NCBI RefSeq assembly: GCF_000023325.1
Contig: NC_012785.1
Span: 1,302,001 to 1,366,000, forward strand
From: Kosmotoga olearia TBF 19.5.1
Lineage (GTDB): Bacteria > Thermotogota > Thermotogae > Petrotogales > Kosmotogaceae
DNA length: 64,000 nucleotides
Reading direction: 5' to 3'
Part shown: positions 5,877 through 54,069 of the stretch, piece by piece
Layout of the letters: each line of letters begins with the position of its first letter
Numbering within the stretch: position 1 is the stretch's first letter
Position numbers and translations under genes: made by a program
The notes under the pieces: model-generated
Database searches by the model: none
Told to the model about the DNA's origin: nothing
Seen by the model: only the letters and a program-made list of their open reading frames with translations

Positions 5877-6465
5877 CATATTACCGGTTGCTGGGTGTAG
5901 AGCAATCCTCTCGGGTTCTATTCCGCCGTATGCACGTGTCATCGACAAAGTCGGTCGAGATAACTGCGCCGGACTTACCCACACGAAGCGTGTTTACCAG
6001 TTCTCTATTTTTCAAGCCGCAAAGCAACCCTTTCGCTTTTTGATTTTTACGTACAACGCACAACGTACAACCGACAACGGTTTTTATCGCTGCGCAACAG
6101 TTCGCAACAACTACGAAGCAGTTCGGGTCAACTCCAAAGGAGTTCGTATCACCGGCGAAGCCGGTCGTATCAATCCCGAAGGGATTCGTATCCGCCGCGC
6201 AGCGGCTATCTCGGTTCTCGGCTTTTTATCAGCGTCTGCGAGCCCCAACCTCGTGAGCGTCAACGTCGTGAGCCTCCTGAGCGCAGCTCAGCACTTCACA
6301 GCTTAGCTGCTTTCCGCCGCGCAGCGGCTCTCTCGGTTCTCGGACTCTCGGATTCTCGTATTCTTATCAGGAGTTCGTATCACCGGCGAAGCCGGTCGTA
6401 TCAATCCCGCAGGGATTCGTGTCGCCGCGAAGCGGCTCTCTCGGACTCTCGGATCCTTGTCTCTC
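5877..6465 (+). repeat. 21-nt phased GNA-hairpin array (best exemplar)
   Basis: Six successive mini inverted repeats have loop centres at 6095, 6116, 6137, 6158, 6179 and 6200, exactly 21 nt apart. Stems differ: ACCGGC-GAA-GCCGGT (6151-6165), AATCCC-GAA-GGGATT (6172-6186) and CCGC-GCA-GCGG (6195-6205). The same stems recur at 6381-6434 with loops GAA, GCA and GAA, so the middle loop base is free while G and A are kept. CT-rich spacers of TCTCGGTTCTCGG type and the CTGAGC-GCA-GCTCAG module follow. Reading frames cross the array as heptapeptide repeats, but I see no start site or codon bias supporting a protein. Confidence 0.85.
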
Positions 6466-6500: not shown

Positions 6501-6533
6501 ATACTTAAATAGAAAAAATTAAATACAGAAAAA

Positions 6534-6646
6534 TTCTCCGGGGCAGGGTGAAATTCCCGACCGGCGGTGAAAGCCCGCGAGCTCCTGAAGGAGTTGATCC
6601 GGTGGAATTCCGGAGCCGACGGTGAAAGTCCGGATGGGAGGAGAAT
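6534..6646 (+). promoter_or_regulatory. FMN riboswitch (RFN element)
   Basis: The conserved RFN core is fully present. It includes GGGGCAGGGTGAAATTCCCG, the CGGCGGTGAAAGCCCGCGAG arm, GATCCGGTGGAATTCCGG, and CCGACGGTGAAAGTCCGG before the closing GGGAGGAGAA, which pairs with the opening TTCTCC. It binds FMN and lies directly upstream of a rho-independent terminator and ribD, so it should repress riboflavin synthesis by transcription termination when FMN is plentiful. Confidence 0.97.
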
Positions 6647-6691
6647 TGATAGTAGATAAAAAGCAATGTATATGTTGCGATATTGAATCTT

Positions 6692-13976: not shown

Positions 13977-14074
13977 GTCATCCTGAACTTGATTCAGGAT
14001 CTCGTACTTAAGAAAATAAGATTCTGGATAAAACATCTCCAGAATGACAGGTATCCGTTGACTTCTAAAGAATG
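13977..14074 (+). repeat. TCATCCTGAACTTG hairpin element
   Basis: There are two adjacent inverted repeats, TCCTGAA-CTTGA-TTCAGGA and ATTCTGGA...TCCAGAAT, followed by AATGACAG. Further copies are at 30480-30635, 32233-32258 and 53019-53092. Sequences of this form are common intergenic repeats in many bacteria. Confidence 0.75.
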
Positions 14075-14099: not shown

Positions 14100-14444
14100 A
14101 GTCCAGCACTTCAGTAGAGTAGCTGCTTTCCGCCGAAGGCGCACATCAACTGCGCAGCAGTTCGCAACAACCACGAAGTGGTTCGCAACAATCCCGAAGG
14201 GATTCGCATCCGCCGCGCAGCGGCTATCTCGGTTCTCGGACTCTCGGATTCTTATCAGCGTCTGCAAGCCTCAACGTCGTGAGCCTCCTGAGCGCAGCTC
14301 AGCACTTTCGCCGCATAGCGGCCCTCTCGCCTTCTCGGCTTCTCAGACTCTCGATGTTTTCTCTATACCCTAGACTCCAGACCCTATCCCCGCTTTTGGT
14401 TCTTTCCGCCGAAGGCGCGTGTCAACTGCGAAGCAGTTCGAGAC
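14100..14444 (+). repeat. Hairpin-module array, left part split by IS3
   Basis: Phased hairpins AACTGC-GCA-GCAGTT, AACCAC-GAA-GTGGTT, AATCCC-GAA-GGGATT and CCGC-GCA-GCGG are followed by CT-rich spacers and the CTATACCCTAGACTCCAGAC block. The array continues at 15860 beyond the IS3 element. The uninterrupted version is seen at 18070-18273 and 32385-32612. Confidence 0.85.
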
Positions 14445-15859: not shown

Positions 15860-16030
15860 GAGACAACCACGAAGTGGTTCGCAACAACTCCGCAGGAGTT
15901 CGTATCAATCCCGAAGGGATTCGTGTCCCTGCTGCAAAGCAGCTTTCTCGGACTCTCGAAGTTTTTTTGGTGGACTGTCCCCATTTTCCATATCCGCTGC
16001 GAAGCAGCGCACAGTGGAGTACCTCCATTT
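15860..16030 (+). repeat. Hairpin-module array, right part
   Basis: The array resumes after the IS with AACCAC-GAA-GTGGTT, AACTCC-GCA-GGAGTT, AATCCC-GAA-GGGATT and CTGCT-GCAA-AGCAG in 21-nt phase, then a spacer. A partial GGTGGACTGTCCCCATTTTC REP half-site (about 15969-15988) and CCGCTGC-GAA-GCAGCG follow. Confidence 0.8.
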
Positions 16031-17687: not shown

Positions 17688-18273
17688 TCGGTTACACCAA
17701 CTCCGAAGGAGTTCGTACCACTGACGAAGCCAGTTGTACCAACGCGGAGAGCACGCGCGACACGCTGACTTCGTCAGGACTAGGATTAGCACACTGCGTG
17801 TTGACATGCGCTCCTTCGTCGCGGCTATGCGGCCCTTCGAGTCGGAATAAGACATTTTCTAATCCGCCGCAGGCGCAAAGCCGTTCCGTAGGAACGCATA
17901 GCCTGAGCGAAGCCCAATACGGCCGCTGCGAAGCAGGGAATTTCTCGCCCTCTCGGACTCTCGGATTCTTATCAGGAGTTCGTGACAATCCCGAAGGGAT
18001 TCGTATCCGCCGCGCAGCGCCTCTCTCGGTTCTCGATTGTCACGTACAACCTACAACGATTTTATATTCTCACCTTTTCGGCTTCTCAGACTCTCGATGT
18101 TTTCTCTATACCCTAGACTCCAGACCCTATCCCCGCTTTTGGTTCTTTCCGCCGAAGGCGCGTGTCAACTGCGAAGCAGTTCGAGACAACCACGAAGTGG
18201 TTCGCAACAACTCCGCAGGAGTTCGTATCAATCCCGAAGGGATTCGTGTCCCTGCTGCAAAGCAGCTTTCTCG
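17688..18273 (+). repeat. Long hairpin-module array upstream of the group II intron
   Basis: Phased loops are centred at 18074+100 (18174), 18195, 18216 and 18237, each 21 nt apart. Earlier modules include GTTCC-GTA-GGAAC (17883-17895), which appears with a GAA loop at 30695-30707. The CTATACCCTAGACTCC block is at about 18105-18125. The array ends in CTGCTGCAAAGCAGC then TTTCTCG, where the intron begins. Confidence 0.85.
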
Positions 18274-20269
18274 GTGTGCCCGGCATGACATACAACTATA
18301 GGGTGAAAGTCCCGAATGCGGGGAGCGAGATAAGCATTAGCTGAGGGCAAGGGTGTCACTGGTAACGGTGAATCTGAAGGAAGCCTAAGGCAAAATCTGG
18401 AACTGAACGAAAGTGAACCAGTGTTGGCCGGTAGAGAGGGTAACCTTGCCGAGAATGGGTAAGCCCGAGCTCCAACTCTACAGGTTTGGATGGCAGGATT
18501 CGGATGAAAGCTGTATGTCTTACCCGGGGAAGTCCTCACTCGTCCCAAAATGGGTAAGCCGGAACAAGGGGAGACCCAAGGACTGGTGAAGCGGAGGAGG
18601 ATGGCAGACGAACCCGTAGTAGTGTTGAACCTCTCTGAAAGGAGAAGGGACTATCGCCTTGAGCGATGGGGGTAACAGGAACCGAAAGGGCCTGTTACTT
18701 GCGAAGGGGGGAAGGATTGAGGAAATGGCACAAAGGGAAGCGAGTATAACAGGAGTCCGTAACGGAGGCTGAAATGCTAACGACGGTTGAGAATAGCCGG
18801 GGCAGGTAAGTAACCATTGCAAAGATAGGAAGATTCCCGGGGGGGGGGTAAAGAATCCAATCTTTGGATGGGAGAAGAAACCGATTCTGTTATATGCGAC
18901 TTATCCGGAAGGCCATACAGGAGGAAACATGAGGAAGTACTACAGTCTTATTGACAAAGTTTATCTGGAAGCGAACCTGGTCAAAGCATATCACAAGGTG
19001 CGGAAGAACAACGGAGCACCTGGGATAGATGGAGTAACGGTTCAGGAGTATGGAGAAAACCTTCTGGAAAGGATTAAGAAACTCAGCGAAAAGTTGCGAA
19101 AAGGAGAATACCGGCCTTCACCGGTAAAAAGGGTAGAAATCCCGAAAGGAAATGGGAAGACACGTATGCTCGGGATACCGACGGTAGAGGATCGAATAGT
19201 ACAACAATCGCTGAAAGAAATAATGGAACCAATCTTTGAGGAAGGATTTCATCCTTCAAGTTATGGATACAGGAAAGGAAGGAATCCACACCAGGCAGTA
19301 GAGAAAGCCTATGCCTTCGCGTGCAAATACAAAATGAAATACGTGGTACAGTTAGACCTTAGTCAATGCTTTGACACCTTAGACCACGAAAAGATGATAG
19401 ACGCAGTAGCGGAAAGAATAAGCGATGGCAAAATATTGAGACTAATAAGAAGTTTCCTCAAAAGTGGAGTCATAACAGACCAATACCAACCCAGTGAGAT
19501 GGGAAGTCCACAGGGCGGAGTAATAAGCCCCCTGCTATCCAACATCTATCTGAACAAATTTGACCAGAAAATGATGGCCAGAGGAATAAGGATAGTGAGA
19601 TATGCAGATGACATACTAATCTTCGCAAAGAGCTACAAAAGCGCGGAAAAATATCTGAGAATAGCTATCCGAATACTGGAAAAAGAGCTGAAATTGAAGG
19701 TCAACAAAGAAAAGACGAGAATAACCACGATAGATGATGGAATCGAATTTCTTGGATTCACCATACAAAAAGGCAAAATACGAATCCAGGAAAAGAAAAT
19801 GAAGAGGTTCAAAGCCAAAGCAAAAACACTCACCCGAAGAAACCAATGTACACCGATCGGAGAGATAATAAAACGACTAAACCAATTGCTGAGAGGCTTC
19901 AGCAATTACTACAAAATAATCGACTGGGTGGGCGTATTCAGAGACCTCATGGGTTGGATAAGAAGGAGATTGAGAGCCATAATCCTGCGACAATGGAAAA
20001 CGACAAAGAAACTACGCAGGGTGATGAGACAAAAAGGATACAGAGGCGAAATATCCGGAATAAGAATGAACAAATGGAGAAGCTCTCGATCGCGATTGGT
20101 CAGTAGACTACTGCCTAACAAATATTTTCAGAAGATAGGGCTGTATGATATGAAGCTTTCACATGTACCACTGTCGGAGAATCCGATACTCAATCCATGA
20201 GCCGTGTACGTTGACCCGTACGCACGGTTCTGTGAGAGGACGAGGGGCATTGCCCCTCTCCTACTCGAT
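18274..20269 (+). mobile_element. Group II intron with reverse transcriptase
   Basis: The 1996-nt element begins GTGTGCCCGG, fitting the GUGYG 5' consensus. It has a domain V-like hairpin at 20199-20230 (GAGCCGTG...CACGGTTC) and a domain VI ending CTCCTACTCGAT at 20269. Domain IV holds the RT gene. EBS1 is predicted as CGAGAA at 18450-18455, complementary to TTCTCG (18268-18273) just before the 5' splice site. Insertion after a hairpin plus TTTCTCG, and an RT without endonuclease, resemble class C introns. It lies inside the repeat array. Confidence 0.92.
18929..20200 (+). CDS. ltrA: Group II intron reverse transcriptase/maturase
   Basis: The protein has 423 residues. RT motifs in order: NNGAPGIDGVTVQEY, GKTRMLGIPTVEDRIVQQ, PSSYGYRKGRNPHQA, QLDLSQCFDTLDH, MGSPQGGVISPLLSNIYL, and the catalytic RYADDILIF (about residue 227). 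The C-terminal third (GFSNYY and RKLRRVMRQKGYRG) is the maturase domain. There is no HNH endonuclease, as in class C/D introns that use existing nicks or forks. It helps splicing and reverse transcription of the host intron. A GGAGG site precedes the ATG by 6 nt. Confidence 0.95.
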   Translation: MRKYYSLIDKVYLEANLVKAYHKVRKNNGAPGIDGVTVQEYGENLLERIKKLSEKLRKGEYRPSPVKRVEIPKGNGKTRMLGIPTVEDRIVQQSLKEIMEPIFEEGFHPSSYGYRKGRNPHQAVEKAYAFACKYKMKYVVQLDLSQCFDTLDHEKMIDAVAERISDGKILRLIRSFLKSGVITDQYQPSEMGSPQGGVISPLLSNIYLNKFDQKMMARGIRIVRYADDILIFAKSYKSAEKYLRIAIRILEKELKLKVNKEKTRITTIDDGIEFLGFTIQKGKIRIQEKKMKRFKAKAKTLTRRNQCTPIGEIIKRLNQLLRGFSNYYKIIDWVGVFRDLMGWIRRRLRAIILRQWKTTKKLRRVMRQKGYRGEISGIRMNKWRSSRSRLVSRLLPNKYFQKIGLYDMKLSHVPLSENPILNP

Positions 20270-23159: not shown

Positions 23160-23600
23160 AAAGTTGCACCCACTCCGAAGAAGAGCATACCCTCAACGAA
23201 GCCGAGCTTACCCACGCGCTAGCGTGCTCACCAGCCGCGCAGCGGCTTTCTCTGGTCTCGAATCTCGATTTTCGATTGTCACGCACAACCCACAACGCAC
23301 AACCAACAACGGCTTTGGCTCACCCCTGACAAAGTCAAGCTTACCCTTGGCGCAGCCAAGCTTACCCACGCGCTAGCGTGCTTACCGGATCTCGGTTCTC
23401 GAACTCTCGATGTTTTCTCTATACCCTATACCCCAGACCCTATACCCGCTTTTGGTTCTTTCCGCCGAAGGCGCGTGTCAACTGCGCAGCAGTTCGAAAC
23501 AACTCCGAAGGAGTTCGTGACAACTCTGAAAGAGTTCGTGTCAATCCCGAAGGGATTCGTTGCTGCAAAACAGTTTGCTCCGCTGGCTTGCTATCCAAAG
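23160..23600 (+). repeat. Hairpin-module array
   Basis: Modules include CTTGGC-GCA-GCCAAG (about 23347-23361), CACGC-GCTA-GCGTG and phased hairpins centred at 23487, 23508, 23529 and 23550. The one at 23529 has stem AACTCT/AGAGTT, a compensated variant of AACTCC/GGAGTT. A diverged CTATACCCTATACCCCAGAC block is at 23420-23440. No gene is seen before 23846. Confidence 0.83.
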
Positions 23601-30640: not shown

Positions 30641-30795
30641 AAGACGTAGTCAAGTACTTCACAGCGTAGCTGCTTTCCGCCGCAGGCGCAAAGCCGTTCC
30701 GAAGGAACGCATAGCCTGAGCGCAGCTCAGCACTTTCGCCGCATAGCGGCCCTCTCGCCTTCTCGGACTCTCGGATTCTCGTGTTTTTATCAGAA
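30641..30795 (+). repeat. Hairpin-module array
   Basis: It carries GTTCC-GAA-GGAAC (30695-30707), CTGAGC-GCA-GCTCAG, CCGC-ATA-GCGG and CT-rich spacers. No gene is seen between uridine phosphorylase and the permease. Confidence 0.8.
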
Positions 30796-32232: not shown

Positions 32233-32670
32233 TATCATCCTGAACTTGATTCAGGATCTATCATTCTTGATCTCTCGGATCTCGCCTTCTCGGTTCTCGG
32301 ATTTCGGTTCTCGGCTTTTTATCAGCGTCTGCGAGCCTCAACCTCGTGAGCGTCAACGTCGTGAGCCTCCTGAGCGCAGCTCAGCACTTTCGCCGCATAG
32401 CGGCCCTCTCGCCTTCTCGGCTTCTCAGACTCTCGATGTTTTCTCTATACCCTAGACTCCAGACCCTATCCCCGCTTTTGGTTCTTTCCGCCGAAGGCGC
32501 GTGTCAACTGCGAAGCAGTTCGAGACAACCACGAAGTGGTTCGCAACAACTCCGCAGGAGTTCGTATCAATCCCGAAGGGATTCGTGTCCCTGCTGCAAA
32601 GCAGCTTTCTCGGACTCTCGGATTCTCGGATTCTTATCAGGAGTTCGTATCACCGGCGAAGCCAGACACA
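32233..32670 (+). repeat. Repeat array with intact long block
   Basis: It begins with one TCCTGAACTTGATTCAGGA hairpin and continues with spacers, CTGAGC-GCA-GCTCAG, the CTATACCCTAGACTCC block and four GNA hairpins in 21-nt phase (32505-32600). The 32385-32612 segment is almost identical to 18070-18273. That makes it the uninterrupted reference for both the IS3 and the intron insertions. Confidence 0.85.
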
Positions 32671-33294: not shown

Positions 33295-33500
33295 CGGGAG
33301 CTTACACCCCCGACGCAGCCGGGCTTACCCTTGGCGAAGCCAAGCTTACCCACGCGCTAGCGTGCTCACCAGCAGCGCAGCGGCTCTCTCGGTTCTCGGA
33401 TTCTCGGATTCTCGGATTCTTATCAGGAGTTCGCACCACTGGCATTAGCCAGTCGCACCCACGCGCAGCGTGTTTACCCGCTTTCGCTTTCTCGATTTTG
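33295..33500 (+). repeat. Hairpin-module array
   Basis: CTTGGC-GAA-GCCAAG, CACGC-GCTA-GCGTG, CCGC-like modules, three TTCTCGGAT spacers, ACTGGC-ATTA-GCCAGT and CACGC-GCA-GCGTG are present. It lies between the toxin-antitoxin promoter and the ATPase gene. Confidence 0.8.
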
Positions 33501-34984: not shown

Positions 34985-35172
34985 AACGTCGCTCCACCAA
35001 TTGACAGTCTCACAAGCCTCCTGGACATAGTCCAGCACTTCGCAGCGTAGCTGCTTTCCGCCGCGCAGCGGCTATCTCGGTTCTCGGACTCTCGGACTCT
35101 CGGATTCTCGGATTCTTATCAGGAGTTCGCACCACTGGCATTAGCCAGTCGTACCCACGCGAAGCGTGTTTA
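34985..35172 (+). repeat. Hairpin-module array
   Basis: CTGGAC-ATA-GTCCAG, CCGC-GCA-GCGG, a spacer with TCTCGGA repeated four times, ACTGGC-ATTA-GCCAGT and CACGC-GAA-GCGTG are present. It ends at the stop codon of the convergent phosphatase gene. Confidence 0.8.
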
Positions 35173-39439: not shown

Positions 39440-39655
39440 TTATTTTAAGTAATGTCAACTGCGCAGCAGTTCGGGTCAACTCCGTAGGAGTTCGTGACAA
39501 CTCAGAATGAGTTCGCTCCAATCCCGAAGGGATTCGTGTCTGCCGCGCAGCGGCTATCTCGGTTCTCGGACTCTCGGATTCTCGGATTCTTATCACGAGT
39601 TCGAGACAACCACAAGCAGTTCGCGTCCGCCGTGCAGCGCCAAGCCTTGTAAACA
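39440..39655 (+). repeat. Phased hairpin array with compensatory stems
   Basis: Loop centres are at 39464, 39485, 39506, 39527 and 39548, all 21 nt apart. Stems and loops in order: AACTGC-GCA, AACTCC-GTA, AACTCA-GAA (partner TGAGTT), AATCCC-GAA and CCGC-GCA. After a spacer, CGAGTTCGAGACAACC begins the segment shared with 53190-53254 next to the second RAYT. Confidence 0.87.
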
Positions 39656-40348
39656 TTACCTTTTCTTTGGTCTGCCTTTTGGCCTTCTTTTCAGTGGGAG
39701 GCCCAAAACCTCTTCAAATTTAGCAATTTTTTCGTCGTTAAAAAATAATCTTCCAGTAGAAGTATTCCTTCGTATATTAGAAAGAAAATCATTACTATCC
39801 GGATATCCAAGATATTCTTTCCATCCGTCAGGATTCCAGTTAAATCCAAAATCTGACAAATCGCTTAAGTGAAGAAAATGGGGACTTTCCCTCCGTGTGT
39901 CCCCATTTTCTTTTACACGTACCCTAGCGCTCGACCATTCATAATCCCAGGGAAATTCAACTATCTTTGCTCTTACGGGGTTTCGCTCAACATATTTAAC
40001 AGCCGAAATAGCATGTTCTTGATCGAGAGGGCAGGAATAGAATCTTCCCTGCCAGAGATGTCCCGTTCTATGATGTTTTCGATTAAAATACTGTGAGTAT
40101 CTCATATGAGCGTACTTAAAAGCCATGGCTAGAGAATCTTCTCTTTCAGGGACAGCGATAAAATGAACATGATTGGTCATGAGGCAATACGCATATATCT
40201 TGAGCCCATGTTTAGCTGAATATTCCTTAATGAATTCAAGATATTTGATTCTATCTTCAGGATCCTCAAAAACACTTTGACGATAATTACCCCTTTGCGT
40301 TACATGATGAGCAATACCCTCGAGAACAACCCTCGCGCTTCTTGGCAT
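39656..40348 (-). CDS. REP-associated tyrosine transposase, copy 1
   Basis: The 230-residue protein is Y1/HUH type: MTNHVHFIAVP is the HUH motif (about residues 69-79), and the catalytic Tyr is in AHMRYSQYF. The start MPRSARVVLEGIAHHVTQRG is diagnostic of RAYT proteins. Such enzymes cut single-stranded DNA at hairpins. Near residue 152 the protein contains KENGDTRRESPHFLH, encoded by an AAAATGGGGAC hairpin (39873-39911). The ATG at 40348 follows GGTGATGAA. It is nearly identical to the gene at 53255. Confidence 0.93.
   Translation of the reverse strand: MPRSARVVLEGIAHHVTQRGNYRQSVFEDPEDRIKYLEFIKEYSAKHGLKIYAYCLMTNHVHFIAVPEREDSLAMAFKYAHMRYSQYFNRKHHRTGHLWQGRFYSCPLDQEHAISAVKYVERNPVRAKIVEFPWDYEWSSARVRVKENGDTRRESPHFLHLSDLSDFGFNWNPDGWKEYLGYPDSNDFLSNIRRNTSTGRLFFNDEKIAKFEEVLGLPLKRRPKGRPKKR
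39873..39911 (-). repeat. REP hairpin inside RAYT copy 1
   Basis: AGAAAATGGGGAC and GTCCCCATTTTCT arms lie within the coding sequence and are translated in frame. Confidence 0.85.
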
Positions 40349-40390
40349 TTCATCACCACTTGGCAACCAAGATACCCGATCATACCATAA

Positions 40391-40760: not shown

Positions 40761-41654
40761 TCAAATAATGATTCGCCATGTTCCTGAGTTCATTACCTCA
40801 AACCTAGTATTTTCTTTCACAACGGATCCAGGTACCCAGCAAAGACCGGGGGAGGAAATAGCTCTTCCTGCTCCTTTTCTGTTATCCCATTCTCTTCCCG
40901 TGAAAATCTCTATCTCGCCTTCTATTTTCAAAGGTGGAACACATTCAACATGTGCCCAGACAGGCTTTCCCGCTATTATAATCACATTTACGGACTCCTT
41001 AGTTTCACTCCATTCACCATAAAATCCCTCTGTTTCCAGTTTTGTATCGTCTACCCTTTTTAGTTTCGACAACTCTATCCTCCCGAATCCGTACTTTCTC
41101 TCACCACCTACTTGTAGAAACTGAATCAGTTCAGAGAGTTTCAGCCGAGCACCTTCATATTTGAGTGAAAGATCATCGTCCTGTTCAGAAAAGCTCTCGA
41201 GTTTCTTCACCCACAGCAACCCCTTAAGAGACAAAGGAGAAGAATCATCCATACTGTAAGGATTTATATGCTCAAGATGATGCAGGGTCTCCTCTTCTGC
41301 GGATAGAGAGTATGCATCTATGGAGGTTGTTGATATGGAATGAACACACTTTTTTTCAAACTCATACAAAGAGACTCCACCGAATTTTAAACCTTCCTCC
41401 GTATATTTAGGAATAAAGAGTTCTTCTCCATCTGAAAGATAAAGATATCCAAATCTCATCTGTTCTTTCAAAAACTGCCCGGCTTTTTTATAGTCACCTT
41501 TACCTGTTTTCTGCACAAGTCTTACCGTCACAGCACCCCAAAGAGTTCTTCCAGGAACATAGAGTCTTGTTCGCATGAGATGCATGATTTTGTGATATCC
41601 AATGTGCAAAGGTGATTTCAGCCGGAAGGTTACAGAATAGAGAAACCAGCTCAC
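40761..41654 (-). CDS. CRISPR type III RAMP protein, probable Cas5-group (Cmr3/Csx10-like) subunit
   Basis: The 297-residue protein has RAMP traits. It starts SVTFRLKSPLHIGYHK, has the substrate-strand RLYVPGRTLWGAVTVRL (about residues 31-47) and a glycine-rich loop GGERKYGFGRIEL near residue 197. It is the last gene of the effector operon, where the crRNA 5'-handle-binding Cas5-type subunit would be expected. The subunit identity is inferred from position. It overlaps the preceding small-subunit gene by 4 nt. Confidence 0.75.
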   Translation of the reverse strand: MSWFLYSVTFRLKSPLHIGYHKIMHLMRTRLYVPGRTLWGAVTVRLVQKTGKGDYKKAGQFLKEQMRFGYLYLSDGEELFIPKYTEEGLKFGGVSLYEFEKKCVHSISTTSIDAYSLSAEEETLHHLEHINPYSMDDSSPLSLKGLLWVKKLESFSEQDDDLSLKYEGARLKLSELIQFLQVGGERKYGFGRIELSKLKRVDDTKLETEGFYGEWSETKESVNVIIIAGKPVWAHVECVPPLKIEGEIEIFTGREWDNRKGAGRAISSPGLCWVPGSVVKENTRFEVMNSGTWRIII

Positions 41655-42052
41655 TTCTCCTCACCTTGATTTTTAGACTCTTTTACCCTGGCTTTGGCAT
41701 GATATCTTGCGTATATTAAAGTTTTCTCGATAACCTCAATAGCGAACATCAAATCGTGTATCTTCTCTGAAAGCTTGCTTATCTGCAAGAGCTTATCTTC
41801 CTCCGAGGAATTTTCCAGAAGTTTGAGTTCACCCAGTATTTCTATGGATTTATCAAGAATCTGCTTCGTTCCATTTTCAACCATGCAGAATAAACCGAGT
41901 GCATATAATCCCTGCTGCTGTAAAACACTCAGGGCTTTGGTTATGAGGTTCAGAACTTCTTTTGGGGTGTGCTTATCATCTATCATTCTGTTTGTAATTT
42001 CAAAACTATATTTTGCACAGATTTGGTCGATGTTCTTAGTTTCCTCACACAT
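41651..42052 (-). CDS. cmr5: CRISPR type III small subunit (Cmr5/Cas11-like)
   Basis: The 133-residue, mostly alpha-helical protein (KEVLNLITKALSVLQQQGLYALGLFC in the first half, then long charged helices) fits Cmr5-type small subunits, which line the target RNA in the complex. The QQGLYALGL pattern resembles the Cmr5 nGLlqtlaF segment. Similarity is weak, but position between Cmr4 and the last RAMP supports it. It overlaps cmr4 by 8 nt. Confidence 0.72.
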   Translation of the reverse strand: MCEETKNIDQICAKYSFEITNRMIDDKHTPKEVLNLITKALSVLQQQGLYALGLFCMVENGTKQILDKSIEILGELKLLENSSEEDKLLQISKLSEKIHDLMFAIEVIEKTLIYARYHAKARVKESKNQGEEK

Positions 42053-43025
42053 TTCCTCTCACTCCTTCAAAGTTCAGCACCCTCATTCTTCCCATTCCAC
42101 GCGTGTTCATGCCACCTATTCCCAAGATTTCAAAAAGTTTTAAGCCTTTCTCCACCTGAACTTTCACCCAGTTTATTCCAACGTCTCCTCCATCTTCTGT
42201 TTTCAGTTCTTCACCACCAACTTTGAAATATTTACCCGAATTGTATATGATAGCGAATTTTAAAATGGTACCACGCGGTATCGCTTCATAAGTGAAAAGT
42301 GCTTTTTCTTCAGCAGTACCAGTATCGGGATCGATACTCACTGACGTTCTCACTTCAAGATTACTGTTTACAATCTTTTGAAAAAGCGCGTCCGAGACAA
42401 GAACTGCCCTTTGGGCCACAAGACCAGGTGGCACACCTTTGACTTCATCCAATTTCTCTTTCGCTTCCTTTTGACTATTCTCTTCTTTTTCCAGCATGAT
42501 CCAGCCGAAATTGAGTCTTTCTCTGTTTTTTATTTGTTCTCCCAAAGGATAGAATTTATCGTCTGACAAATTGACATCATCCAACTCTAATGCCAATGGA
42601 GAAGTCACCCACACAGGTCCTATCATGGACGAAACAGGGAAAAGAAGGATGTGTGCATCAAAAAACTGCGCAAGACCCTGCATGCTGTTACCAGAACCTC
42701 TCGAAAAACCATATGAAACACACACGGGGCACGCGGGATTGACTATTCCACAATGTTTTTCGCCACCCTCTCCGCCTCTTCCTGCGCAGGAATATTCCTG
42801 TTTGTCCTTTTTCCATCTGTACTTCCCCGTTGCAAGAGCAGTATACGCTCGTGCGGGTCCACTTATACTTGTCCCCGGTATTTTCGGAAGTCTTGTAGCA
42901 GGATCCCGTACTATGGAAAGATCCACTCTTTCTAGTCTTGTTCCTCCCACCCCAACATGTATTGGATCAATGGTTATCGCGTAATAGGTTTCCAATTTGT
43001 AAATATTGGATTCACAAGGACTCAT
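42045..43025 (-). CDS. cmr4: CRISPR backbone subunit Cmr4 (Cas7 family)
   Basis: The 326-residue protein forms the crRNA backbone. ITIDPIHVGVGGTRLERVDL gives the RAMP start with the probable target-RNA-cleaving Asp at D35. PKIPGTSISGPARAYTA is the next conserved segment. FFDAHILLFPVSSMIGPVWVTS is highly characteristic of Cmr4, and ILGIGGMNTRGMGRMRVL is the glycine-rich loop. A cysteine cluster (CGIVNPACPVC) suggests a metal site. It overlaps cas10 by 14 nt. Confidence 0.9.
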   Translation of the reverse strand: MSPCESNIYKLETYYAITIDPIHVGVGGTRLERVDLSIVRDPATRLPKIPGTSISGPARAYTALATGKYRWKKDKQEYSCAGRGGEGGEKHCGIVNPACPVCVSYGFSRGSGNSMQGLAQFFDAHILLFPVSSMIGPVWVTSPLALELDDVNLSDDKFYPLGEQIKNRERLNFGWIMLEKEENSQKEAKEKLDEVKGVPPGLVAQRAVLVSDALFQKIVNSNLEVRTSVSIDPDTGTAEEKALFTYEAIPRGTILKFAIIYNSGKYFKVGGEELKTEDGGDVGINWVKVQVEKGLKLFEILGIGGMNTRGMGRMRVLNFEGVRGNV

Positions 43026-53254: not shown

Positions 53255-53947
53255 TTACCTTTTCTTTGGTCTGCCTCTTGGCCTTCTTTTCAGTGGGAGG
53301 CCCAAAACCTCTTCAAATTTAGCAATTTTTTCGTCGTTAAAAAATAGTCTTCCAGTAGAAGTATTCCTTCGTATATTAGAAAGAAAATCATTACTATCCG
53401 GATATCCAAGATATTCTTTCCATCCGTCAGGATTCCAGTTAAATCCAAAATCTGACAAATCGCTTAAGTGAAGAAAATGAGGACTTTCCCTCCGTGTGTC
53501 CCCATTTTCTTTTACACGTACTCCAGCGCTCGACCATTCATAATCCCAGGGAAGTTCAACCATCTTTGCTCTCACGGGATTTCTCTCAACATATTTGACG
53601 GCCGAAATAGCATGTTCATGATCGAGAGGGCAGGAAAAGAATCTTCCCTGCCAAAGATGCCCTGTTCTATGGTGTTTTCGGTTGAAATACTGTGAGTATC
53701 TCATATGAGCGTACTTAAAAGCCATGGCTAGAGAATCTTCTCTTTCAGGGACAGCGATAAAATGAACATGATTGGTCATGAGGCAATACGCATATATCTT
53801 GAGCCCGTATTTGGTTGAATATTCCTTAATGAGCTCAAGGTACTTGATTCTGTCTTCAGGATCCTCAAAGATGTTCTGACGATAATTTCCCCTTTGGGTT
53901 ACATGATGAGCAATACCCTCGAGAACAACCCTCGCGCTTCTTGGCAT
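53255..53947 (-). CDS. REP-associated tyrosine transposase, copy 2
   Basis: The 230-residue near-duplicate of the gene at 39656 has the same HUH motif MTNHVHFIAVP, catalytic Tyr in HMRYSQYF and C-terminal RRPRGRPKKR. It also carries the in-frame insert KENGDTRRESPHFLH (hairpin 53472-53510, one arm mismatch). Start MPRSARVVLEG at 53947 follows GGTGGTGGATG. Homology with copy 1 continues into the array downstream and the GTCTGTCCCTATTTT site upstream, so the whole unit was duplicated. Confidence 0.93.
   Translation of the reverse strand: MPRSARVVLEGIAHHVTQRGNYRQNIFEDPEDRIKYLELIKEYSTKYGLKIYAYCLMTNHVHFIAVPEREDSLAMAFKYAHMRYSQYFNRKHHRTGHLWQGRFFSCPLDHEHAISAVKYVERNPVRAKMVELPWDYEWSSAGVRVKENGDTRRESPHFLHLSDLSDFGFNWNPDGWKEYLGYPDSNDFLSNIRRNTSTGRLFFNDEKIAKFEEVLGLPLKRRPRGRPKKR
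53472..53510 (-). repeat. REP hairpin inside RAYT copy 2
   Basis: AGAAAATGAGGAC and GTCCCCATTTTCT arms; one substitution in the left arm compared with copy 1 leaves the peptide unchanged. Confidence 0.8.
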
Positions 53948-54069
53948 TTCATCCACCACCTGGCAACCAAGATACCCGATCATACCATAAAATATTGGAG
54001 TCTGTCCCTATTTTTCTCCTATTTTTCTCCGTTCCTATTTTTCTCCGCTCCAACTGCAAAGCAGCTCTT

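Follow-up and report, generated by a model that had tools for sequence, protein, structure and literature searches.

Hairpin arrays in the window

The window, a stretch of 64,000 nucleotides, covers positions 1302001-1366000 of the single-contig genome (2,302,126 bases) of the heat-loving bacterium Kosmotoga olearia TBF 19.5.1 and contains, in the spaces between genes, repeated units of the form C-[6-bp stem]-GNA-[stem]-C set at a pitch of 21 nt (Table 1). According to the original prediction, the two arms of the stem change together in such units while the GNA loop is kept, and the units quoted for this are all found. Among them, AACTCC-GTA-GGAGTT and AACTCA-GAA-TGAGTT (the latter centered on 39506) stand side by side in the array from which the prediction started, AACTCT-GAA-AGAGTT occupies 23522-23536 (with 23529 as its center), and AACTCC-GCA-GGAGTT is present at 15886, 18209, and 32548. 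Likewise, the CGTTCC-GTA-GGAACG and CGTTCC-GAA-GGAACG units, which differ only in the loop, begin at the first positions given for them in Table 1.

Table 1. Hairpin units, arrays, and the neighboring transposase ORF in the window (positions count from the first base of the window).
Feature	Position	Strand	Basis
Slot-1 unit AACTGC-GCA-GCAGTT, array of the original prediction	39457-39471	+	sequence
Slot-3 unit AACTCC-GTA-GGAGTT	39478-39492	+	sequence
Slot-4 unit AACTCA-GAA-TGAGTT, A:T closing pair	39499-39513	+	sequence
Slot-5 unit AATCCC-GAA-GGGATT	39520-39534	+	sequence
Unit TGCCGC-GCA-GCGGCT, 5/6 pairs, 21 nt past the slot-5 unit	39541-39555	+	read from sequence
Remainder of island: decayed units and TCTCGG-type 8-bp repeats	39556-39655	+	
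IS200-like tyrosine transposase ORF (Y1_Tnp), array neighbor, predicted	39656-40366	-	
Array AACTGC > AACTCC > AACTCT > AATCCC	23480-23557	+	
Array AACTGC > AACCAC > AACTCC > AATCCC	18167-18244	+	
Array AACTGC > AACCAC > AACTCC > AATCCC	32506-32583	+	
Array AACCAC > AACTCC > AATCCC	15865-15921	+	
Array AACTGC > AACCAC > AATCCC	14148-14204	+	
Unit CGTTCC-GTA-GGAACG	17882-17896	+	
Units CGTTCC-GAA-GGAACG and CTGAGC-GCA-GCTCAG, spacing 21 nt	30695-30730	+	
Units ACCGGC-GAA-GCCGGT and AATCCC-GAA-GGGATT, spacing 21 nt	6151-6186	+	

Other elements are found in or near these islands. Short tandem arrays of TCTCGGAT/TCTCGGAC, which often adjoin hairpin arrays, lie within islands at 33387-33420, 35082-35116, and 39557-39590, and CATCCTGAACTTGATTCAGGATC hairpins occur at 13980, 30486, 32237, and 53024, in or near array islands. 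The island at 6098-6460 is directly 5′ of an FMN riboswitch (6530-6649), and a group II intron (18356-20269, + strand) sits within an island just past the array at 18167-18244 and a CTGCTGCAAAGCAG hairpin, with the island sequence picking up again behind it. GIIM matches in the genome number six; with the motifs used, no 5′ junctions of group II introns were found, and a 3′ junction was found for the window intron only. By eye, the ORFs at 40761-43025 (- strand) resemble RAMP-type CRISPR proteins. On a larger scale, a hot spot of units at genome positions 1280001-1410000 has orientations of +60/-1 over 1.28-1.366 Mb and +1/-38 over 1.37-1.41 Mb, and a stretch nearly free of units sits between these opposite parts.

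Architecture and copy number of the repeat unit

Perfect hairpins with a 6-bp stem and a 3-nt loop number 70 in the window (23.4 expected, as the mean of five Markov sequences), and 50 of them have a GNA loop, 46 on the + and 4 on the - strand. No enrichment was seen for 7-bp stems in the window (5 vs. 4.8 expected), and AACTCNGNANGAGTT has nine matches there against 0.01 expected. For a larger K. olearia sample of 820 kb, we combined the window with 20 stretches around units, 20 spread stretches, and 8 more around units. Here, 418 perfect 6-bp GNA hairpins were found, with C as the closing base in 355, T in 38, A in 21, and G in 4, while one Markov draw gave 4, 11, 13, and 4, respectively (32 in total). 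Hence, 355 of the 418 hairpins have the C:G-closed GNA loop that marks C(GNA)G DNA mini-hairpins, and 49 different stems occur among these. A flanking C is found 5′ of the stem in 334 and 3′ of it in 322 of the 355 C-closing units, and because C flanks the stem on both sides, a seventh pair almost never forms (2/355). Successive cores no more than 70 nt apart (n = 232) are spaced at 21 nt in 153 cases and at 42 nt in 25, and the 6-nt linker in the main arrays reads CG-N-R-W-C, with 31 different linkers among 158.

Genome-wide, the CAA-N4-GNA-N4-TTCG pattern has 290 matches compared with 28 for its reversed form, and the paired-stem observation holds throughout the K. olearia genome. In the 240-kb spread sample, the pattern occurs nine times, with all four inner pairs formed in seven, which means that copies are clustered and that the chosen stretches over-represent units. 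The 21-nt pitch, the C flanks on both sides, the fixed stem order described below, and the hundreds of copies across the genome all go beyond the original prediction.

Pairing and constancy of the stems

The CAA..GNA..TTCG selection leaves four stem pairs free, and in the 820 kb it gave 43 distinct units, background included. Among these, 86.8% of cells were paired (71.4% when shuffled), 46 cells were altered on both sides (17.7 when shuffled), and the covariation score was 0.450 vs. 0.183, a value that none of 500 shuffles reached; slid registers all scored far lower, with at most 48.1% of cells paired. Counted as pairs in which both sides changed at least once, however often, this set showed no excess (4 vs. 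3.8 in shuffles). A looser pattern, CGNAG-N5-C-N4-C-N5-CGNAG, requires the closing pair and leaves the outer five pairs unconstrained, and it occurs at 257 places in K. olearia, 30 in G006 (a relative whose genus label matches that of K. pacifica), and 19 in K. pacifica, as compared with 5, 2, and 3 for the reversed pattern. Flanks were read for 204 of the 257 K. olearia places and for every place in the other two species (30 and 19). Units with the full set of five outer pairs numbered 251 of 340 in K. olearia, 43 of 52 in G006, and 21 of 36 in K. pacifica, and the paired fractions of outer cells were, in the same order, 0.909, 0.946, and 0.822 (shuffled means of 0.418, 0.409, and 0.377). Moreover, among the sampled units, the stems CACTTC, CACGAC, AATCGC, and CCTGGC are found in K. 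pacifica only, and CATTCC in G006 only, so the design is kept while the stem letters differ between species. As the units were chosen regardless of pairing at the counted positions, this high level of pairing supports the predicted maintenance of the hairpin.

Along the arrays, the stems follow the order ATCGAC > AACTGC > AACCAC > AACTCC > (AACTCT, AACTCA, ACCGGC or ACTGGC) > AATCCC, with 154 neighboring stem pairs in accord with it, 5 opposed, and 3 equal in slot; by eye, the same order is found in K. pacifica, G006, and contig L015. None of 177 neighboring pairs has identical stems. In a 464-kb set, there were no like-stem neighbors among 139 pairs vs. 22.5 expected (minimum of 10 in 2000 shuffles), though, with the slot order passed on by copying, these do not amount to 139 independent events. 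For the slot flanked by perfect AACCAC and AATCCC units (n = 19), 1 of 228 stem cells differs from the most frequent letter, as against 32% for the middle loop base and 5-53% for linker positions 3-5, and so the stems are constrained or homogenized far beyond the linkers. Such near-fixed stems argue against free compensatory drift, where the stem sequence would wander. Thus, the paired stem change in the original prediction is real, but as frequent stems are few and near-invariant per slot, it is not drift of that kind. Stems drifting unpaired at the neutral rate, which would speak against the prediction, are the opposite of what we observed, with stem changes being far rarer than those in loops and linkers.

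Exchange of units between arrays

One array can be aligned between species. Beside it, a G006 gene (L040:14899-16269) has a protein 99% identical to that of the K. olearia gene at genome positions 1384437-1385804, and the DNA from this shared gene into the array is 97.9% identical over 1589 bp. Both arrays consist of ATCGAC, AACTGC (TT loop), AACTCC, slot 4, and AATCCC. Slot 4 is AACTCT-GAA-AGAGTT in G006 versus ACCGGC-GCA-GCCGGT in K. olearia, and the linkers on either side of it differ, while the neighboring units are unchanged. The K. olearia block of slots 3-5 (59 nt) is present in three arrays of the same 20-kb stretch (L035) and in L113, and the G006 form of these slots is present in K. 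olearia at L036. The two-arm change is most simply explained by exchange of a ready-made 21-nt unit at slot 4, and the 59-nt block common to three neighboring arrays is as local homogenization would give. Several other stretches shared by G006 and K. olearia have just 69-87% DNA identity, and the 99%-identical gene looks like a recent transfer together with its array.

At another locus, K. olearia and the metagenomic (MAG) contig L013 differ from contig L016 by the replacement of a 40-nt block, in which GCCAC-GCA-GTGGC becomes GCCGC-ACA-GCGGC, and otherwise by one base in a loop, two in linkers, and stem changes confined to one arm. L013 (which matches K. olearia at 99% identity across 2 kb) and L016 are binned to two MAGs, one of them from another family, and both are probably misbinned K. 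olearia-like contigs. Across the three species, there are 47 distinct one-mismatch units, of which eight combine one known stem on one arm with another known stem on the other; such one-arm intermediates indicate that stepwise change also occurs, or that recombination cuts at the loop. Stems one pair apart show no significant excess (28/528 vs. 21.8 under a composition null, P 0.08), and we therefore make no claim of a stepwise stem network.

With regard to the copying process that the original prediction offered as an option, such as template switching that regenerates one arm from the other, copying is seen, but it is whole units that are copied (the slot-4 swap and the 40-nt block), and regeneration of arm from arm was not seen. 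While both arms do differ at slot 4 in the one alignable array, the loop and linkers were replaced as well. No clean empty insertion sites were obtained: L015 and G006 share array-adjoining genes with K. olearia, but synteny breaks there, and the gene next to the array of K. pacifica has no match in K. olearia.

Distribution

A search with AACTCCGNAGGAGTTCGNNNCAA, which represents one stem, across 84,980 species genomes (a set that may omit close relatives of the window's genome) returned four contigs, three labeled Thermotogae, Thermotogaceae, or Kosmotogales, and one Saccharibacteria contig with a single unit. Among 103 genomes of the phylum, most are at background for CGNAG-N5-C-N4-C-N5-CGNAG. 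A mild excess of this core pattern, counted irrespective of pairing, is found in five other Thermotogota (G013, G068, G072, G093, and G097; 13-19 vs. 3-5 in controls), including G013 with 19 vs. 4. Viral contigs gave no match to a similar hairpin pattern. Searches of open-license PMC literature turned up no description of GNA arrays, which does not prove their absence from print.

Comparison with known hairpins and alternative explanations

Organelle hairpin repeats, a kind that besides the sponge RHE and the Volvox palindromes includes the double-hairpin elements of Allomyces, are one point of comparison. As described for sponge and Volvox, these are likewise dispersed, nested, short, and treated as selfish, and two types of the sponge element are separated by a small number of complementary substitutions (PMC2800124, PMC2670323). 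In these descriptions, the loop of the sponge elements changes while the stem is kept. Unlike the K. olearia units, the organelle hairpins are mostly longer-stemmed and without a fixed GNA loop or order. C(GNA)G DNA mini-hairpins, on the other hand, share the GNA loop closed by C:G, the part that stays constant in our units. Those of the d(GCGAAGC) class are reported to resist nucleases and to be extraordinarily stable when they have at least two G-C pairs (PMC4686876); they are described as synthetic oligonucleotides, and the portion of PMC4686876 consulted contains no genomic family. By analogy with these related short hairpins, our units may be unusually stable as DNA. Folding programs with the ViennaRNA DNA parameters did not favor GNA over most other triloops tried.

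The genome has two Y1_Tnp ORFs, both in the window (39656-40366 and 53255-53983, each on the - strand) and near-identical; each contains an in-frame hairpin like AAGAAAATGGGGAC..GTCCCCATTTTCTT, and by eye a decayed island of ~70 bp downstream is common to the two. That one of these genes ends beside the array of the original prediction and the other has decayed units on its flanks favors the view that the repeats are REP-like elements mobilized by the IS200-like tyrosine transposases. Like REP/BIME with RAYT (PMC3733652), they are short, high-copy extragenic palindromes in mosaic clusters and are uneven across related species. Nevertheless, we regard such mobilization as unlikely, given that K. 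olearia has just these two genes and that G007, with four Y1_Tnp matches, has no unit excess (4 vs. 6 in the control). Both genes lie near intact or decayed units, but over 17 family genomes, Y1_Tnp and unit copy numbers are not in step. Moreover, unlike REP/BIME, the units have a 6-bp stem and a 3-nt loop and are without a GTAG foot tag: GTAG or GTGG lies within 2 nt of the 5′ foot in none of the 355 units, and their reverse complements come equally close to the 3′ foot in just 1 and 2 units. The arrays also differ in running head-to-tail at 21 nt with different stems in set order, without inverted doublets (HH or TT) and without a numerical link to transposase genes. The hairpin of the Y1_Tnp region itself, GGGGAC..GTCCCC, is a different one that agrees with GGGGWSAS, the TIR consensus given for tyrosine transposases (PMC3733652). 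K. olearia is listed there with CGTC-3 repeats and tyrosine transposases, and the CATCCTGAACTTGATTCAGGATC hairpins look like these CGTC-3 REPs. CGTC-tagged REPs share the genome and islands of the GNA units, but their stems of 8-9 bp and loops of 4-5 nt (PMC3733652) contrast with 6 bp and 3 nt here, and CGTC occurs at the 5′ foot of 16 of the 355 GNA units. GNA is absent from the main text of PMC3733652.

Were the arrays transcribed and the hairpins selected in RNA, whether as a 3′ UTR stabilizer, a sponge, or a regulatory RNA, then strong paired covariation and a GNA strand that is consistent within each array would fit. We hold this to be quite improbable, as none of three lines of evidence favors RNA. 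Mismatches among the 47 one-mismatch units are A.C in 15 and G.T in 12 (14 and 18 in an earlier set), similar counts that give no wobble preference on either strand. By crude ORF calls, 61 islands include 30 with the upstream gene on the same strand and 26 with it on the opposite strand (3 are mixed and 2 inside ORF calls), and the 56 so placed comprise 18 between convergent, 12 between divergent, and 26 between co-directional genes. Also, an Rfam cmscan of the window found nothing on the arrays at the gathering score; its only matches were an FMN riboswitch and, for group II introns, two models. Arm-from-arm template switching (quasipalindrome repair) as the main source of paired changes draws on the one-mismatch units, including the eight hybrids of two known stems, which occur in both directions for ACCGGC/ACTGGC. 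It seems unlikely all the same, since the loop and linkers were replaced along with both arms in the ortholog comparison, stems one pair apart are not above the composition null, and one-arm differences between strains stay uncorrected. As for phased double-stranded protein sites, with 21 bp as two helical turns and the unit as a dyad for a DNA-binding protein, the exact pitch and constant C flanks are in keeping with them, yet a sequence-reading dimer needs a constant half-site, and 49 C-closing half-sites occur, all paired. The GNA loop and its closing pair stay constant instead, which is what folding of a single strand would require, and we give protein sites of this sort very little credence.

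Other roles were tried and rejected. As to protein coding, inspection of the reading frames of the 21-nt unit by eye puts the loop N at a non-synonymous site and leaves third positions unvaried, and in one frame the GTA loop is a stop. A replication-strand bias does not fit the orientation flip inside one arm, gene-corrected GC skew suggesting an origin near 1.15-1.25 Mb, nor does a terminator or 3′-UTR role fit the lack of preference in gene orientation. With respect to viral origin, viral contigs are without any array, and the transposase query matched no relative there.

Interpretation

We consider it probable that the units are extragenic repeats particular to the Kosmotogaceae, forming a 21-nt-pitch necklace of C(GNA)G DNA mini-hairpins that is reshuffled by unit-wise recombination. 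Its observed side comprises the architecture, the pairing in three species, the near-invariant slot stems, and the whole-unit exchange between orthologous arrays. The unit may be kept since one strand, when single-stranded, would fold into a very stable C(GNA)G hairpin. Recombination, by gene conversion or template switching between arrays and with neighboring units serving as homology, would spread and homogenize the arrays, and most paired changes would then be swaps of ready-made hairpins. New stem types may be rare, arising from a one-arm mutation after which the partner is restored, and the elements would be mostly selfish or host-neutral. The events behind the recombination are few, namely a single clean swap in orthologous arrays of two species and a single block replacement between strains, and at slot 4 the comparison is between two states, G006 and K. 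olearia, without an assigned direction. That the linkers (CG-N-R-W-C) are not fully random is a feature that the recombining necklace does not explain, and the fixed slot order and the avoidance of like neighbors could point to a function beyond selfish spread. On a more doubtful reading, though still a possible one, the stems would be a small alphabet in fixed slots that evolves by swapping whole letters, where unlike neighbors avoid mispairing or recombining away, and folded single strands are read by a host or mobile-element enzyme.

Stem covariation is the standard sign of selected structure, and as a paired change here is seen to result from the exchange of a finished hairpin, counting covariation in repeats without regard to recombination can be misleading. 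Moreover, the family represents a natural, high-copy C(GNA)G DNA mini-hairpin in a fully sequenced bacterium, and with it, the bacterial use of folded single-stranded DNA of such a kind becomes testable.
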